NCBI GenBank assembly: GCA_020073165.1
Contig: JAIQFP010000007.1
Span: 1-64,000, forward strand
DNA: 64,000 nt
Direction of reading: 5' to 3'
Origin: Terriglobia bacterium
GTDB taxonomy: Bacteria > Acidobacteriota > Terriglobia > Terriglobales > Acidobacteriaceae
In this document: one piece after another, positions 1,088 to 42,330 of the stretch
Layout: every line of letters starts with the position of its first letter
Numbering within the stretch: position 1 is the first letter of the stretch
Notes under the pieces: generated by a model
What the model was told of the DNA's origin: nothing
Seen by the model: the letters and a program-made list of their open reading frames with translations, nothing else
Databases searched by the model: none
Position numbers and translations under genes: made by a program

Positions 1088-3172
1088 TTACTTGTTGCCC
1101 TGGACGCGCGCGATAATCTCGTCTGCAGTCCCGCGCGGCACTTCTTCATACCGTGCAAAGTGCATGGAGTACTCGGCGCGGCCCTGGGTGTTGGAACGCA
1201 TCTCCGTGGCGTAGCCGAACATCTCCGCCAGGGGAACAATCGCCTTGATGACCTGCGAACCGGCGCGGTGTTCCATGCCTTCGATGCGTCCACGCCGCGA
1301 ACTCAAATCACCCATGATGACGCCGGCATAGTCTTCCGGAGTCACCACTTCCACCGACATCACCGGTTCCAGCAGCACAGGTGACGACTTGCGCGCAGCT
1401 TCCTTGAAGGCCATGGAACCGGCGATCTTGAACGCCATTTCGTTAGAATCCACTTCGTGGTAACTGCCGTCGTACAGAGTGGCCTTCACATCCACCATGG
1501 GATAACCGGCCAGGATGCCGCCTTCCATGGCCTCCTTGATCCCCTGATCGATGGGCTTGATAAATTCCTTGGGCACGGAGCCACCCACGATGTCGTTGAT
1601 GAATTCGTAACCCTTGCCCGGCTCGTTCGGTTCCAGGCGAATCTTGGCGTGGCCGTACTGGCCGCGGCCACCGGTCTGGCGGATGTACTTGCCTTCCGCT
1701 TCCGATCTCCTGCGGATGGTCTCGCGGTAGGCGACTTGCGGCTTGCCCACGTTGGCTTCGACCTTGTACTCGCGCATCATGCGGTCCACGATGATTTCCA
1801 GATGCAACTCGCCCATGCCGCTGATGATGGTTTGTCCGCTGTCGGGGTCGGTGTGAACTTTGAAGGTGGGATCTTCCTGGGCCAGCTTGGAGAGAGCCAT
1901 GCCCATTTTTTCCTGATCGGCCTTGGTTTTGGGCTCGACCGCTACCGAGATCACGGGGACGGCAAATTCGATGGACTCGAGCGCGATGGGATGCCTTTCG
2001 TCGCAAATCGTGTCGCCGGTGCTGACGTTTTTCAGGCCGACGGCGGCGCAAATATCCCCTGCCAGGATTTCGTTGATGTCTTCGCGCTTGTTGGCGTGCA
2101 TCTTGAGCAAACGGCCAATACGCTCGGTGCGTCCGCGGCCGGCGTTGAGCACCGAGTCACCCGACTTGAGCTGGCCCGAATAGACACGAATAAAGGTCAA
2201 CTGGCCGACAAACGGATCAGCCATGATCTTGAAGGCCAGCGCGGAAAACGGATCGTCATCGGACGGATGGCGAGTGACCACTTCGCCGTTGTCGGGGTTG
2301 ATGCCTTTCACTTCGCCCGCATCCAGCGGGGAGGGCAGATAGTCCACCACCGCGTCCAGCAGCGGCTGCACGCCCTTGTTCTTGAAGGCCGTGCCCACCA
2401 CTACCGGAAACACCTTCAGGGCGATGGTTGACTGGCGCAGAGAAGCCCGCAGTTCCCCGGGGGAAATGGTCTCGCCTTCCAGGAACTTGTGCAGCATGGC
2501 GTCGTCGTTCTCGGCCACCGCCTCGACTAACTTGTTGTGAAAGGCTTCGGCTTTCTTCTGCAGTTCGGCGGGGATCTCACCGGTCAGATATTCCGCCCCG
2601 ATGGTGTCATCCTGCCAGATGATGGATTTCATTTCGATGAGATCCACCACCCCTTTGAACTTGTCTTCCTGGCCGATGGGAATCTGGATTGCGACGGGCT
2701 TGGCATTGAGGCGCTTGCGGATCGTATCGACGGCGTGTTCAAAATCGGCGCCCATCTTGTCGATCTTATTAATGAAGCAAATTCGCGGGACTCCGTACTT
2801 GTCGGCCTGCCGCCAGACTTTTTCCGACTGCGGCTGCACTCCGTGGACGGCGTCAAATACCGCGACCGCGCCGTCGAGGACCCGCAACGAGCGCTCCACT
2901 TCGGCGGTGAAATCCACGTGGCCGGGGGTATCAATAATGTTGATACGAATATCGCGCCAGGTGCAGGTCGTAGCCGCGGAGGTGATGGTGATGCCGCGCT
3001 CCTGTTCCTGCTCCATCCAGTCCATGATGGCCGTGCCATCGTGGACTTCTCCCATGCGGTGCGTCTTCCCGGTATAGAAAAGAATGCGTTCGGTCGTAGT
3101 GGTCTTGCCGGCATCGATGTGGGCCATGATGCCGATGTTCCTGCACCGTTCTAATGGGACCTGCCTGGACAC
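1088..3172 (-). CDS. fusA: Elongation factor G
   Basis: Translocase GTPase of protein synthesis. The P-loop [13 protein letters not shown], the DTPGHVDF switch II motif and NKIDKMG are visible, followed by the EF-G domains II-V. I place the start at the GTG at 3170-3172: from there the protein begins [14 protein letters not shown], which matches the spacing of the usual EF-G N-terminus (Met, Arg, Pro, then RNIG) and gives 694 residues, the normal family length. The frame stays open for 27 more codons to a TTG at 3253 just after rpsG. That extension is not typical of EF-G and more likely represents an 87-nt spacer with a purine-rich ribosome-binding region. It sits between rpsG and tuf in the str operon. 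Confidence 0.96.
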
Positions 3173-3259
3173 AGCTTTCTTTCTCTCTTCCTTCCGGACC
3201 TCGTTCACGCCGCTAGCGGTACCCGCCAAGTCTTCACCCGTCTCAATCTTCAAAGATTC

Positions 3260-3730
<471 letters not shown>

Positions 3731-3748
3731 TTAGCTTCTTGCTCCGTA

Positions 3749-3770
3749 GAGACGTTGCATGCAACGTCTC
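3749..3770. repeat. Perfect 22-bp palindrome between rpsL and rpsG
   Basis: GAGACGTTGC, a central AT, then GCAACGTCTC: the two 10-base arms are exact reverse complements. It is followed at 3773-3794 by a second hairpin starting with the same GAGACG word (GAGACGC, 8-nt loop, GCGTCTC). I recall very similar gagacgttgcatgcaacgtctc elements dispersed in other bacterial genomes, notably cyanobacteria. That is from memory and unchecked. There is no U-tract, so it is not an obvious intrinsic terminator. Confidence 0.85.
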
Positions 3771-3809
3771 CTGAGACGCAGCAAGCCGCGTCTCGACAGA
3801 AATTTGTCT

Positions 3810-4181
3810 TTATTTAGGCCGCTTCGCTCCGTACTTCGACCGGCTCTGTTTGCGGTTCGCGACGCCTACTGCGTCCAGCGTCCCGCGGATCACGTGATAG
3901 CGCACGCCCGGCAGGTCCTTCACGCGGCCGCCGCGGATCAGCACAATCGAGTGCTCCTGCAGGTTGTGGCCCACGCCGGGAATATAGGTCGTGACTTCAA
4001 TCCCGTTGGTCAGCCGCACCCGGGCCACTTTGCGCAGCGCCGAGTTCGGCTTCTTGGGGGTCTGCGTATACACGCGGGTGCAGACCCCGCGCTTCTGCGG
4101 ACATCCCTGCAGCGCCGGGCTCGCCGTCTTGTAGCGCGGCCGCTTGCGGCCGGCTTTCACCAGTTGATTGAAGGTAGGCAC
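3810..4181 (-). CDS. rpsL: 30S ribosomal protein S12
   Basis: Decoding-centre protein and classical streptomycin target. The product is 123 residues, standard length, starting [13 protein letters not shown]. The [17 protein letters not shown] loop carries the lysines whose mutation gives streptomycin resistance elsewhere, and both look wild type here ([10 protein letters not shown] and [10 protein letters not shown]). It is the first gene of the visible str operon. The only good promoter match upstream is at 4668-4697, giving an inferred leader of about 480 nt. Confidence 0.97.
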
Positions 4182-4661
4182 TCTTTGGCTGCTCCCTCAG
4201 CCGCATCTTCCCGCCCAACACCGCCGTCTAGGCATCCCAAGGCGAGACAACGCCGCTTCTGCTTTTTTCCCCTGATTCAGGGGCTGGATGGCCGACCCGC
4301 CAACCATGCTTCCCGCCGCACCAACCTCAGGCGAGAGATTTCCGCTTCCCGGTCAGACTAAGGCTGACGACGGTGGCACCAGGCCCGGTACATTGTCCGG
4401 GAGGTGCTCCGTTTCGTCCGCTCCTGCCCTGCATACCCTTCCGCAGCTCCTGGCGGCGCCGGAAAGTGCAAGCGCACCAGGGACCCTTTGACAGGGCGGA
4501 AGGTAGCGCAGGGCGTTTCAGCGAGGGCGTTTCCGGATCAGCTTGCTCCCGGAAACGTGTTTCTTCTAAAGCTTAGCTGCGTTTTTTCGGGGCTTTCGCA
4601 CGCACACACCTGGCGTGCGGCAACCGCCGCCTACAGACAAGCCAGACTTAACTCGCGGAAC
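4182..4661 (-). other. Long untranslated leader of the str operon (inferred)
   Basis: No convincing coding region lies between rpsL and the promoter at 4668-4697. The leader is rich in short GC stems, for example CCCCTGA-A-TCAGGGG (plus strand 4269-4283) and CCCGG...CCGGG around 4384-4402. I do not recognise a known riboswitch or ribosomal-protein leader. An open plus-strand frame crosses the region but lacks coding character and is treated as an upstream extension of the lipoprotein frame. Confidence 0.4.
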
Positions 4662-4667
4662 CGTACA

Positions 4668-4697
4668 ACTATAGCAACTGACCTCACACATCGTCAA
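4668..4697 (-). promoter_or_regulatory. Sigma70-like promoter for rpsL-rpsG-fusA-tuf
   Basis: Read on the minus strand: TTGACG (4692-4697), an 18-nt spacer, then TATAGT (4668-4673). Five of six bases match in each consensus hexamer. It points toward rpsL and is the best match in the upstream gap. Confidence 0.6.
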
Positions 4698-4741
4698 CCG
4701 GGCTCCCCCGCATCTCACTCCCGAGTGCGCGCCCCGAACCC

Positions 4742-4770
4742 TTGCTCAAAAGAATGCCAACCTCTACACT
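4742..4770 (+). promoter_or_regulatory. Sigma70-like promoter for the 4833 lipoprotein gene
   Basis: TTGCTC (4742-4747), a 17-nt spacer, then TACACT (4765-4770). It points at the lipoprotein gene and predicts a leader of about 55 nt. It is divergent from the str operon promoter 45 bp away. Confidence 0.5.
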
Positions 4771-4832
4771 GGAAATTTTCCGCCACAAGGCTGGCTCGCC
4801 CCCGAAGGCCAACCTTGGGGCGGGGAGGGTGC

Positions 4833-7268
4833 ATGAATAGGTCGGTTCTCCTCGTTTTTGCCGTTCTCATGACTCTGGCGTTGACCGTCGGCTTGGCTGG
4901 CTGCAGCAGCAGCAGCGTCAGGGCGACCACTTTCCCAGTCCCCGCCAACGTGACGCTCTCGCCTTCGGCCAGTGTGTCCCTCGACTTGGGCGGAACTCAG
5001 GCTTTTTCGGGCTCGGCGCATAACCCCCAGGGCGGCATCATAATCGAGCCCATTTCCTATAGCTCCAGCAACACCGCCGTGGTGACGATAGCCAGTAACG
5101 GTCTGGCCTGTGCCGGCACCTGGGATTCCCTGACCGCTCCCGCCGTGTGTACCCCCGGTGCGGTGGGCACTGCCCAAATCACGGCCACCGCCCAGGGAGT
5201 CAGCAGTCCGCCCACTACCGTCTACGTGCATCAACACATTGACAGTATTGTGGTACAAGCAGTTCCCACCGACCCTCCGAACACCAATCCCTGCCTTTCC
5301 AAGGATCTGACTGCCGATTACGAGGCGATCGCGTATGGCCGCGGCGCCGACATCACTTCGACCGTGGGACAGTTCACCTGGTCCGCTGTGACGCCGCAGG
5401 TTGTGTCACTGGATACGACGAAGATCGGGTTGGCGCTCAACCAAGCCGAGGCCAAAGCTCTGGCTCCCGGCATCTCCCAGATCTCTGCCAGCGTCGGTGG
5501 GACCAACAGCTTGCCCTTCGATTTCATCGCCTGCCCGGTGCAATCCATCTCGCTGGTAGTTACCGACACCAACAGTGATTCGTTTACCGTCACCACGGGC
5601 AGTTCCAAGAGCATTACCTCCACCGTGCTGGACAGTCTCGGTGTCAAGATTACCGGGGTTAACCTCACATATTGTTCTTCCCAGCCCGCTACCGCGGTGG
5701 TGGGAAGCTCGAATTGCACCACCAGCATCACCGGCACCGTCTCCGTGAGCACCTCCCAACCGGGGGCGGCCACCATCATCGCGTCGTGTACTCCACCGAC
5801 CTGTAACATTGGATTCTCGCCCACCATTCCCATTTACCCCTCCAACGTCATTAAGGGGCTGGTTACCCGGACATCCAGTGGAACCGCTCCCACCGGAACG
5901 CTGTACGTCTCCAGCACCGGTTGCGGCATTATCGACGGCTGCATCAGTACTATCGTCCCGGTAGCATTTCCCAGCAACGCCGTTGGCCCCCAGATCGGCT
6001 TGCCCGCGACTCCCAATTCCCTGGTCTTTGGCCCCAATGGAGCAAAGGTCTACCTGGGCACGGACTTTGGGCTACAGGGCACCCGCGGCCTTATGGTGGT
6101 GACGATCCAGTCGACCACGACATTGGTGCAACAATTCGCTGCCGTGACCGGTAAAGTGTTGGCCGTTTCTCCCAACGGAAACAAGGTGATCGTCTCCGAC
6201 ACCCACCTGACCCCCAACCAGGTGTTTGTCTTCGATAGCACCAACAACAGCAGCGTGGCGTTGCAGATCACAGGAGCCACCGCAGCTGACTTTTCTCCGG
6301 ATAGCCTCAAGGCCTACATCGTGGGAAGCGCGGGCGGAAGCTGCCCCGCTCCCTCTCCCGCCTGTCTGTACGTCTACTCGACCGTGGTCACCGCACAGAC
6401 CATTCCGCTCGATGCTCCAGTCAACGACCTCACATTCCTTTCCGAGGGGGCGTTTGCGTATCTTGCGGGGGGATCATCGAACGCGGTGACCGTGCGCACA
6501 ACGTGCACGAACGAACTGACCGACACAATCGGCACCGCAGCGGCCCCAGCCTTCATCAAGACTCTTCCCAACGCTACTCAGGTTTTGGCGGTGAACCCGC
6601 CCAATCTCGATATCATCAACGTGACGGCGGCTCCCGTGGGCTGCCCCCCGACGGTCAGCAACACTGTGCAATCGGTGAATCTCGGTCAGGGCAACTTTGT
6701 GCCCACCCAGTTCATCATCTCCCCGGACAGCGCCAAAGCCTACGTGATCTCCAGCACACTTTCCAGCATCCTGGTGTTCGACATTGCCTCGCAGACTACT
6801 TCGGCCATCCAATTGGCCGGCAATGCGACTCCGGTCCGGGCTTCTTTGACCCCTGAAGGCACGCTGCTGTATGTGGCCGCCAGCGACAACATGCTGCATG
6901 CGCTGGATACCGTGGTCAACAGCGACTTCCAACAGATTACATTTCCCACAAACCCTGCCAACCAGCAGGGAGCATTTTGCGACGCAGTGACATTTCAAAC
7001 TGTAACCAGCATTACGGCGGCCTCGCAGAGCGGTTCCGACACTACTTATACCTACACGCTGACCTCCGGCCCAGACCTCCAAATCGGCACGAGCGTGACC
7101 ATCACCGGTATGGCGGATACTGGAAATAACGGGACCTTCACTGTTACTGTGGTGGGCAGTGGGACATTCACGGTGGCAAACCCTTCCGGGGTCACGGCCA
7201 GCGCTCAGAGCGGGATGGGGACCGTAGACCTCGTCTGTAACGCGAACTTGATCGCGGTGAGGCCGTAA
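4833..7268 (+). CDS. Secreted lipoprotein with Ig-like and beta-propeller-like repeats
   Basis: An exported 811-residue protein of unknown function. The ATG at 4833 is preceded by GGGGAGGG and opens a lipoprotein signal with lipobox LAGC (Cys24), so it should be lipid-anchored. Residues about 40-350 are Ser/Thr/Val-rich beta modules of bacterial Ig-like (BIG) character with phrases such as SVSLDLGG and ITATAQG. Residues about 370-690 contain repeated units such as LVFGPNGAKVYLGT, FSPDSLKAYIVG and ISPDSAKAYVIS, typical of YVTN/Lp_2-type surface beta-propellers. A short beta module follows at the C-terminus. The same frame is open upstream to 4404, but the signal peptide and RBS decide the start. 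It probably acts at the cell surface in adhesion or scaffolding; the ligand cannot be inferred. Confidence 0.8.
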   Translation: MNRSVLLVFAVLMTLALTVGLAGCSSSSVRATTFPVPANVTLSPSASVSLDLGGTQAFSGSAHNPQGGIIIEPISYSSSNTAVVTIASNGLACAGTWDSLTAPAVCTPGAVGTAQITATAQGVSSPPTTVYVHQHIDSIVVQAVPTDPPNTNPCLSKDLTADYEAIAYGRGADITSTVGQFTWSAVTPQVVSLDTTKIGLALNQAEAKALAPGISQISASVGGTNSLPFDFIACPVQSISLVVTDTNSDSFTVTTGSSKSITSTVLDSLGVKITGVNLTYCSSQPATAVVGSSNCTTSITGTVSVSTSQPGAATIIASCTPPTCNIGFSPTIPIYPSNVIKGLVTRTSSGTAPTGTLYVSSTGCGIIDGCISTIVPVAFPSNAVGPQIGLPATPNSLVFGPNGAKVYLGTDFGLQGTRGLMVVTIQSTTTLVQQFAAVTGKVLAVSPNGNKVIVSDTHLTPNQVFVFDSTNNSSVALQITGATAADFSPDSLKAYIVGSAGGSCPAPSPACLYVYSTVVTAQTIPLDAPVNDLTFLSEGAFAYLAGGSSNAVTVRTTCTNELTDTIGTAAAPAFIKTLPNATQVLAVNPPNLDIINVTAAPVGCPPTVSNTVQSVNLGQGNFVPTQFIISPDSAKAYVISSTLSSILVFDIASQTTSAIQLAGNATPVRASLTPEGTLLYVAASDNMLHALDTVVNSDFQQITFPTNPANQQGAFCDAVTFQTVTSITAASQSGSDTTYTYTLTSGPDLQIGTSVTITGMADTGNNGTFTVTVVGSGTFTVANPSGVTASAQSGMGTVDLVCNANLIAVRP

Positions 7269-40494: not shown

Positions 40495-42330
40495 TCAGTG
40501 TGGCTTGTCACTGGTCTCCTTCGCTGACTTCCCAGGGCTTCCGGGCCGGGCCGAAACTGCGGGATTGCGCCCGGTTACACCCCGCCCTTCCTCGACCACC
40601 AACTCCTGGTCGGCGGCCTCGGCTCCCAGCGTTTCCACCTTGCCGGACGGCCAGCGCACCACCATGGAGTCCACTCGCGTGGCGGCCCCGAGTCCGAAGT
40701 GCAGCCGGGGATCGCTGGCTGACTCAAAGCTGCTGTTGGCGCGCACCTCGGCGGCCTGAGTGAGGCCTCCCGCTTTGACCTCCACCCGGACACCGAAGCC
40801 GTCGCGGTTGGAACGCGTCCCCACAGCTTTGAGCCGCAGCCAGTGGCCAGGTTGGGGCGCCCGGTTCCGCAACAGCACCGGCGAGCCGTCGAGCACGCTG
40901 ATCAAGAGGTCCTCCGCGCCCGAGTTCAAAAAGTCCGCGACGGCTGCACCCCGGGCTACGTAACGTCGGCTCAGGGGAGCGCCGGCGCCTGTCCCCACTT
41001 CCTCGAACTTGCCGGCCTGCAGATTGTGGAAGAGCAACGGGCGCTCAGCGTACGTCACGCCGAAGGAATGCTGGTCTACCTGCGGGTTGACGTGGCCGTT
41101 GGCCACAAAGATCTCCGGCCAGCCGTCGTTGTCGAGGTCCACAAACTTCACCCCAAAAGCGAGGAAAGGAATGCTGATTGGCCCAAACCCGGCTGCACCA
41201 GCCAGGTCGGTGAACTGGCCGTTGCCGTCGTTGTGATAGAGATTGTTGGTGTCGTCAGAGAAATTGGTTTTGACCACGTCGGGCCAGCCGTCATTGTCAT
41301 AATCGGCGGAGTCGATGCCCATGCCCGCCTGCTCCCGTCCATCAGCGCTGTACGCCACACCCGCCTCCGCGCCCACCTCGGTGAATCCGCCCTTGCAGTC
41401 GTTGTGGTAGAGCAGGCTGGGTGAAGAATCGTTGGCCACATAGAGATCGAGGCAGCCATCCTTGTCGTAGTCCAGCCACAGCACGCCCAGACCGTAATAG
41501 CCGCCCGGATCGATGTTCAATTTTTCAGTGACGTCGGTGAACGTGCCATCGCCGTTGTTGTGATACAGGCGGTCGCGAGAGCCTTTCAGGCCGCGAGGCC
41601 CACAGGAGACGGGGATTCCGCGGTACTGGCAGAAGGGGCCTTGCCCGAATTCGGGCAGGTGGTCGAGGTCGAGATCCACATAGTTGGCGATATACAAATC
41701 CAGGTAGCCGTCGTTGTCGTAGTCGCCGAATGCTGTGCTGGTGCCCCAGCGTCCTGGATTGCCCACGCCGGCTTTGGCGGTGACATCGGTAAATGTGCCG
41801 TTACCGTTGTTGTGATACAGCACTCCCCCATTTAGGTAAGTGAGGTAGAGATCCTCCCAGCCATCGTTGTCGTAATCGCCGACCGCCACCCCGAATCCCC
41901 AGCCGCAATGCGTGAGTCCTGACTTGGCAGTGACGTCCGTAAACGTTCCGTCGTGATTATTGCGGTAAAGCTTGCCGGGATGGCAGCGGTCGGAGCGCAG
42001 GTCCGCGAGCGTAGAACCGTCCACCAGGTAGATATCCATCCAGCCGTCGCTGTCGTAGTCGAAGACTGCGACGCCTCCGCACATGGAATCCATGATGTAG
42101 CGCTTGTCCGCGCTGCCGCAGGTGAGGTGGAAGTCAATGCCCGCAGCCCGAGTGACGTCCACAAAAGAAAGGCTTGCGCCGGATGACGCTTTCTTCGGGG
42201 CGCGTGCCGGCGGGGAAGCCTGGTGATTCCGGCTCGGCTGCGGGGACGCTGCCGAACTAAGCAGCAGCGCAGTGCCCATCAGGCCTGCGCTCAAGACTAA
42301 GATCTGCCGGGAAGATCGGAAGGTGAGCAT
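40495..42330 (-). CDS. FG-GAP repeat protein with C-terminal ASPIC/UnbV domain
   Basis: 611 residues, signal peptide (ILVLSAGLMGTALLLSSAAS). Several FG-GAP/VCBS blades carry calcium-binding D-x-D-x-D-G loops (FDYDSDGWMDIY, GDYDNDGWEDLY, LDYDKDGCLDLY, VDLDNDGWPEIF). The C-terminal ~100 residues are the ASPIC/UnbV domain (NRDGFGVRVEVKAGG, WPSGKVETLG). Such CRTAC1-like proteins are extracellular or surface beta-propellers. The ATG at 42330 overlaps the TPR gene stop by one base (TGATG), so the pair is co-translated. In this phylum UnbV proteins are often found beside TPR proteins; the ligand is unknown. Confidence 0.9.
   Translation of the reverse strand: MLTFRSSRQILVLSAGLMGTALLLSSAASPQPSRNHQASPPARAPKKASSGASLSFVDVTRAAGIDFHLTCGSADKRYIMDSMCGGVAVFDYDSDGWMDIYLVDGSTLADLRSDRCHPGKLYRNNHDGTFTDVTAKSGLTHCGWGFGVAVGDYDNDGWEDLYLTYLNGGVLYHNNGNGTFTDVTAKAGVGNPGRWGTSTAFGDYDNDGYLDLYIANYVDLDLDHLPEFGQGPFCQYRGIPVSCGPRGLKGSRDRLYHNNGDGTFTDVTEKLNIDPGGYYGLGVLWLDYDKDGCLDLYVANDSSPSLLYHNDCKGGFTEVGAEAGVAYSADGREQAGMGIDSADYDNDGWPDVVKTNFSDDTNNLYHNDGNGQFTDLAGAAGFGPISIPFLAFGVKFVDLDNDGWPEIFVANGHVNPQVDQHSFGVTYAERPLLFHNLQAGKFEEVGTGAGAPLSRRYVARGAAVADFLNSGAEDLLISVLDGSPVLLRNRAPQPGHWLRLKAVGTRSNRDGFGVRVEVKAGGLTQAAEVRANSSFESASDPRLHFGLGAATRVDSMVVRWPSGKVETLGAEAADQELVVEEGRGVTGRNPAVSARPGSPGKSAKETSDKPH

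Follow-up and report, generated by a model that had tools for sequence, protein, structure and literature searches.

REPs that carry a GTAG tag, and the dimers and heterodimers that they form, have been described previously (Di Nocera et al. 2013, PMC3733652). In subclass 2.4, comprising TnpAREP and double-foot REPs of Cyanobacteria, Bacteroidetes, and scattered other phyla, GTAG...CTAC marks both ends of the unit, and REPs are also found in frame within tnpAREP itself, between the HUH and Y motifs (Quentin et al. 2018, PMC6006769). A 2025 survey noted the "relatively low sequence similarity" that REP motifs show between genomes (PMC12306157). REP units are nonautonomous and are thought to be moved by RAYT (TnpAREP), a single-tyrosine HUH enzyme. 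This enzyme would read the GTAG guide and the hairpin on single-stranded DNA, cut the unit, and rejoin it elsewhere, mostly between genes.

Here, we analyzed a palindromic element in the str operon of a Terriglobia bacterium of the family Acidobacteriaceae. The element lies in a stretch of 64,000 nt, the whole of which is referred to below as the window. In the literature searched, we found no description of a GAGACG REP family in the lineage to which the window belongs.

RESULTS

Two inverted hairpin units lie between rpsL and rpsG

The 79-nt spacer that separates rpsL from rpsG in the window is mostly taken up by a pair of hairpin units at 3746-3797. The features of the locus are as follows, with G001 denoting the sister genome.

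1088-3253, minus strand: fusA, elongation factor G (TIGR00484)
3260-3730, minus strand: rpsG, 30S protein S7 (TIGR01029)
3742-3745, minus strand: GGAG, the likely Shine-Dalgarno sequence of rpsG, 11 nt from the ATG (role judged from its sequence)
3746-3749, plus strand: GTAG tag (foot) of REP unit 1, whose last G is base 1 of the palindrome
3749-3770, plus strand: REP unit 1, TTGC-arm type, perfect 22-nt palindrome GAGACGTTGCATGCAACGTCTC
3771-3772, no strand: 2-nt linker CT of the head-to-head dimer, also 2 nt in G001
3773-3794, minus strand: REP unit 2, CAGC-arm type, GAGACGCAGCAAGCCGCGTCTC, with its orientation taken from its tag
3794-3797, minus strand: degenerate tag of unit 2, GTCG on the minus strand, an intact GTAG in G001
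3810-4181, minus strand: rpsL, 30S protein S12 (TIGR00981)

Read on the plus strand, the element consists of GTAGAGACGTTGCATGCAACGTCTC (3746-3770), CT, GAGACGCAGCAAGCCGCGTCTC (3773-3794), and GAC. Therein, a GTAG-tagged perfect palindrome of 22 nt is followed, 2 nt on, by another 22-nt hairpin unit, which is oriented head to head with it. Unit 2 is 77% identical to unit 1; its arms are 90% complementary, and it contains one G-U pair on the mRNA strand. The original prediction had placed a perfect 22-bp palindrome and a related hairpin in this spacer, and both are indeed there; its span of 3749-3794 starts 3 nt inside the element, as the tag begins at 3746. In both units the tag is on the outer side only, rather than forming the GTAG...CTAC double foot of subclass 2.4. 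Two close inverted REPs joined by a 2-nt linker, the arrangement of a REPIN or BIME, are found in the window and in G001. The window copy is intergenic, and the GGAG before rpsG directly adjoins the REP tag and is left uncovered by the dimer. Diverging from the str operon, at 4404-7268 on the plus strand, is a 954-aa frame that has repeat-like domains and, some way into the frame, a lipoprotein-like start.

The unit is a dispersed and directional repeat in its own genome

The genome from which the window comes (G000; 4.6 Mb in 35 contigs) contains GAGACG-N7-14-CGTCTC at 42 places, compared with 5 for the reversed control pattern. A strict pattern of fixed length gave 34 copies and its control gave 1, and copies of unit 1 with one to three mismatches are present elsewhere in this genome. 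The enrichment belongs to the palindromic unit genome-wide; the word GAGACG by itself shows no enrichment in the window (36 observed versus 44.65 expected).

From 38 loci around the pattern places, we counted 38 units, allowing up to two mismatches in the fixed positions. GTAG was present on exactly one side in 31 of these units, on both sides in 1, and on neither side in 6, and the unit consensus read from the tag is GTAGAGACGCAGCTTGCTGCGTCTC. Read in the same direction, the loop is TT in 20 of the 31 tagged units and AA in none, and in G001 it is TT in 16 of 18 units (16 loci examined). The bias toward TT and the absence of AA indicate that the unit is directional despite its nearly symmetric stem. 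Most copies are single units, with six close pairs no more than 24 nt apart; four of the five TTGC-arm units, including that of the window, are paired with a CAGC-arm unit and so form heterodimers. The repeat shows two features of GTAG-tagged REPs, a palindromic repeated unit of 20 to 40 nt and GTAG at one end.

The perfect dyad symmetry of unit 1 could also be that of a chance palindrome or of a binding site for a DNA-binding protein unrelated to REPs. Unit 1 is the longest loop-free perfect palindrome in the 64-kb window, with a stem of 11 compared with 8 for the next longest, and in 20 mononucleotide shuffles of the window the longest palindrome had a stem of 10 or less. Chance is thereby refuted. 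A one-sided GTAG tag and a directional loop would be unexpected in a symmetric operator, and the association with RAYT described below speaks against either origin, to which we give essentially no credence. The second-longest perfect palindrome of the window is TGCCCGAATTCGGGCA, at 41642-41657.

The dimer is shared by two genus members and absent from 28 other loci of the family

G001, the only other genus member reached, encodes an identical RpsG and has the same head-to-head heterodimer before rpsG, with the same 2-nt linker and both tags intact. The dimer is present at this site in both genus members and at none of 28 other loci in the family, a distribution that points to a lineage-specific insertion that arose before the two species diverged. 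The rpsL-rpsG spacers of the family range from 12 to 164 nt (26 of the 28 loci could be delimited). No precise empty site was readable in the family comparison because the spacers outside the genus do not align.

The dimers of G000 and G001 differ at six positions in about 52 nt. We examined 16 sites in G001, namely rpsG and 15 others taken by contig order from a longer list. For 10 of them the repeat is present at the matching place in G000, and identity at the shared sites is mostly 84 to 91%. Three of the six nonshared sites were checked in G000, where two hold decayed copies and one holds none. Shared and decayed sites are more consistent with an old population that is mostly inherited than with active jumping.

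Other repeats are also seen in these spacers. About 46 extra nt between the dimer and rpsL in G001 (L163) include CCCTTCGACTTCGCTCAGGG, an imperfect palindromic word, suggesting that this spacer took more than one insertion. Many family spacers (L165-L192) contain runs like GAGCTAGAAGCT or other palindromes, such as GGGGCTTTAGCCCC and ACGGCTTCAGCCGT in L192. It looks as though small repeats commonly land in the rpsL-rpsG spacer.

Possible roles of the dimer in the str mRNA

The mRNA strand of the dimer folds into two separate, strong hairpins of 9 to 10 bp (z -3.76). The REP pair might have been co-opted for mRNA stability or processing, separating the expression of rpsL from that of rpsG-fusA. 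REPs are able to stabilize mRNA (cited in PMC6006769). In addition, the dimer has been kept in both genus members, and both stem changes between G000 and G001 preserve pairing as G-U on the mRNA strand. Two stem changes, however, are too few for a test of pairing conservation, and the six differences in the dimer are of the same order as those at other shared sites, giving no sign of extra constraint. The REP unit also recurs at some 30 further sites across the genome, and stems of 9 to 10 bp are short as substrates for RNase III, which counts against a role in mRNA processing. We consider co-option unlikely.

The position of the dimer would also suit an autoregulatory operator of the str operon bound by uS7, as in the rpsL-rpsG spacer of Escherichia coli, where uS7 represses via the intercistronic region (PMC10931766). 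The dimer is nevertheless missing from the spacers of the 28 family loci, some of which are as short as 12 nt, and its sequence is that of a genome-wide repeat. Moreover, the uS7-binding structure of E. coli is described as not obviously conserved elsewhere (PMC10931766). An operator of this kind is very unlikely, and we rejected it on finding a conserved structure upstream of rpsG in 0 of the 28 other family loci and no Rfam match. The sole match in a search for Rfam elements was whalefall-1 (E value of 0.52; score of 14.3 versus a gathering threshold of 37), which was likewise rejected. Strong GC-rich hairpins could alternatively form an intrinsic terminator or attenuator within the operon. 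However, no terminator-like site was detected on either strand, and the mRNA continues past the hairpins as CUACGGAGCAAG, which lacks a U-tract, making such a function extremely improbable.

The original prediction had left two readings side by side, an insertion tolerated in the operon and a processing site. The former is borne out by the excess of strict copies over the control in the genome (34 versus 1) and by the restriction of the site to the genus. The latter gained no support from a dimer that lacks a terminator and an Rfam match, folds as two separate short hairpins, and is not conserved outside the genus.

A RAYT between REPs of the same architecture is found in a relative

G000 encodes 6 Y1_Tnp genes and G001 encodes 13. 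None of these (0/6 and 0/13) has a GAGACG REP within about 1.5 kb, and a REPtron of this family in the own genome was rejected. Other repeats accompany some of these genes. In G001, one RAYT (L215) forms a typical REPtron of another REP family: either side of it bears two GTAG-tagged hairpins of the CCCGGCG/CCCGCCA kind. Two Y1_Tnp genes of the own genome (L009 and L010) lie beside other palindromes (CGCAGCGCTTCAGCGCTGCG and GGCGCGCCTTCCAGGCGCGCC) in which the scan detected no GTAG tag.

We next considered RAYTs with a long linker, using a profile of nine aligned sequences (A1). All nine match NCBIfam REP_Tyr_transpos, with the one score given, 68.5 bits, falling below the cutoff of 80, and their closest solved chain is TnpArep (4er8). 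Pfam Y1_Tnp at an E value of 0.1 matches six of the nine, and the L157 protein has no Pfam match at 0.001. Because Pfam alone is thus a weak detector, our statements of absence are based on searches with the A1 profile. These searches revealed no full-length gene resembling subclass 2.4 in G000 or G001, where the profile gave short C-terminal matches only. Together with the decay of some copies, this result makes the REPs of the genus look orphaned.

Of 16 genomes searched, only that of the family member G029 has a full-length A1-type gene. This gene lies between two inverted copies of GTAGAGACGGGGCTTGCCCCGTCTC, one about 100 nt before the frame and the other 38 nt after it, and contains no internal REP. 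These flanking units fit the core GAGACGNNGCTTGCNNCGTCTC and have the same architecture as the family of the window, sharing its foot, length, GC-TT-GC loop, and tag and differing from it in the letters of the arms. An A1-type gene was detected at an E value of 1e-10 or better in 45 of 396 genomes sampled across the phylum; none of these 45 is from the family of the window, and the genomes listed do not include G029. In G151, from another family of the phylum, the A1-type gene is surrounded by GAGACG-type palindromes. The mobilizer of the REP pair is probably a RAYT that is now missing from the genus.

The same core occurs in distant phyla

The original prediction had described similar words as dispersed in distant phyla and proposed a search for the palindrome in the genome and in other phyla. 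The palindrome is present in both, and the likeness exceeds what had been claimed: at least 118 stretches from named genome records, with titles from 13 phyla, contain the exact 22-mer, compared with a chance expectation of about 0.015 in 257 billion bases. The largest groups among these records are Cyanobacteria including Melainabacteria (61), Bacteroidota (26), Chloroflexota (9), and Gammaproteobacteria (6). Ignavibacteria/Chlorobiota and Deltaproteobacteria in the old sense have 3 records each; Fibrobacterota, Actinobacteria, and Calditrichota have 2 each; and Gemmatimonadota, Planctomycetota, Spirochaetota, and Synergistota have 1 each. Phyla were assigned by record title, and since many of the records are MAGs, single phylum cases may be misassigned.

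In these genomes, the 22-mer is mostly part of a 28-nt double-foot palindrome: among 125 copies, GTA and TAC flank both sides in 98, one side in 21, and neither side in 6. In 4 of 95 copies of the 28-mer (L157, L051, L096, and L155), the inverted repeat extends a further 9 to 11 nt into the flanks (about 0.1 expected with shuffled partners), which could reflect insertion into hairpin loops or inverted duplication. The 22-mer is sometimes found inside or beside RAYT/TnpAREP genes, with a RAYT frame in 7 of the 118 stretches listed. The tagged 25-mer was found in 5 stretches of viral contigs, and a search of plasmids with RAYT gave 2 records.

A first RAYT profile drew on 36 frames picked automatically, of which at least 4 (L214, L217, L233, and L235) are visibly not RAYTs, and its matches were checked by eye for the HUH and Y motifs. 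Such a gene is present in 133 of 296 Bacteroidota genomes. We read the RAYT frames at 30 loci, leaving out L239, L253, and L263, where the motif rule gave no frame. A palindrome with a stem of at least 8 follows the HUH motif in 21 of the 27 frames (0.88 expected from shuffles), and 2 have a palindrome in the 100 residues up to HUH; 9 palindromes among these frames are of the AGACG..CGTCT type. In a second 30-locus set, from which L318, L323, and L327 were left out, 13 of the 27 frames kept have a palindrome after HUH. Separately, GAGACG units with spacers that are in part repeated (AGATACAGTACTGCC) are clustered in a Deltaproteobacteria MAG (L145, 7439-7683), about 430 nt past a RAYT-like frame.

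DISCUSSION

The element between rpsL and rpsG is very probably a GTAG-tagged REP heterodimer of the REPIN/BIME type, of the kind thought to be mobilized by RAYT, and a tolerated, vertically inherited insertion in the str operon. We infer that a RAYT cut and joined these units and was subsequently lost from the genus. The insertion would be tolerated because this spacer varies freely within the family in both length and sequence, with the likely Shine-Dalgarno sequence free and no U-tract following the hairpins. As a side effect, the transcript may be protected or weakened to a slight degree by the two hairpins, and they may have a regulatory side role in the str mRNA. Even the rpsL-rpsG spacer of the str operon, then, accepts REP dimers, and the REP family of this lineage is tied to a RAYT in the relative G029.

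The identity of the core across 13 phylum labels makes it a good case for asking how REP populations arise and how long they outlast their transposase. As a tentative explanation, about which we remain doubtful, one REP core, identical over 22 to 28 nt, might have been spread across more than 10 phyla by a gene that carries an internal copy. Each horizontal transfer of the transposase gene would bring its own substrate and found a new REP population, a process that could be called self-seeding. The population would then outlive the gene, and the orphan copies in the genus of the window may be an example. REPs within the gene are already in print (Quentin et al. 2018, PMC6006769); the suggestion that self-seeding could account for the cross-phylum identity is ours.

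The family resembles the REPs of Di Nocera et al. (2013, PMC3733652) in unit size, GTAG tag, short loop, and heterodimers, and the window copy, like those REPs, is intergenic. The dimers reported there are head-to-head and tail-to-tail, spaced by 1 to 5 or 20 to 100 bp, and the window dimer is alike. In contrast, the GAGACG family does not appear in the text of that article, in which Acidobacteria are represented only by TIR-flanked RAYTs. Like the REPIN/BIME elements (Bertels and Rainey 2011, PMC3116915; E. coli pairs as given in PMC6006769), the dimer consists of two inverted REPs, here of two arm types; unlike those elements as presented in these sources, it has a linker of just 2 nt, and single units predominate in its own genome. 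The 28-nt palindromes and RAYTs of other phyla match subclass 2.4 as outlined by Quentin et al. (2018, PMC6006769), whereas the units in the genus of the window have a one-sided tag, and neither G000 nor G001 yielded such a gene. Finally, the exact sharing of one core across phyla is an exception to the low similarity among REP motifs stated in the 2025 survey (PMC12306157).
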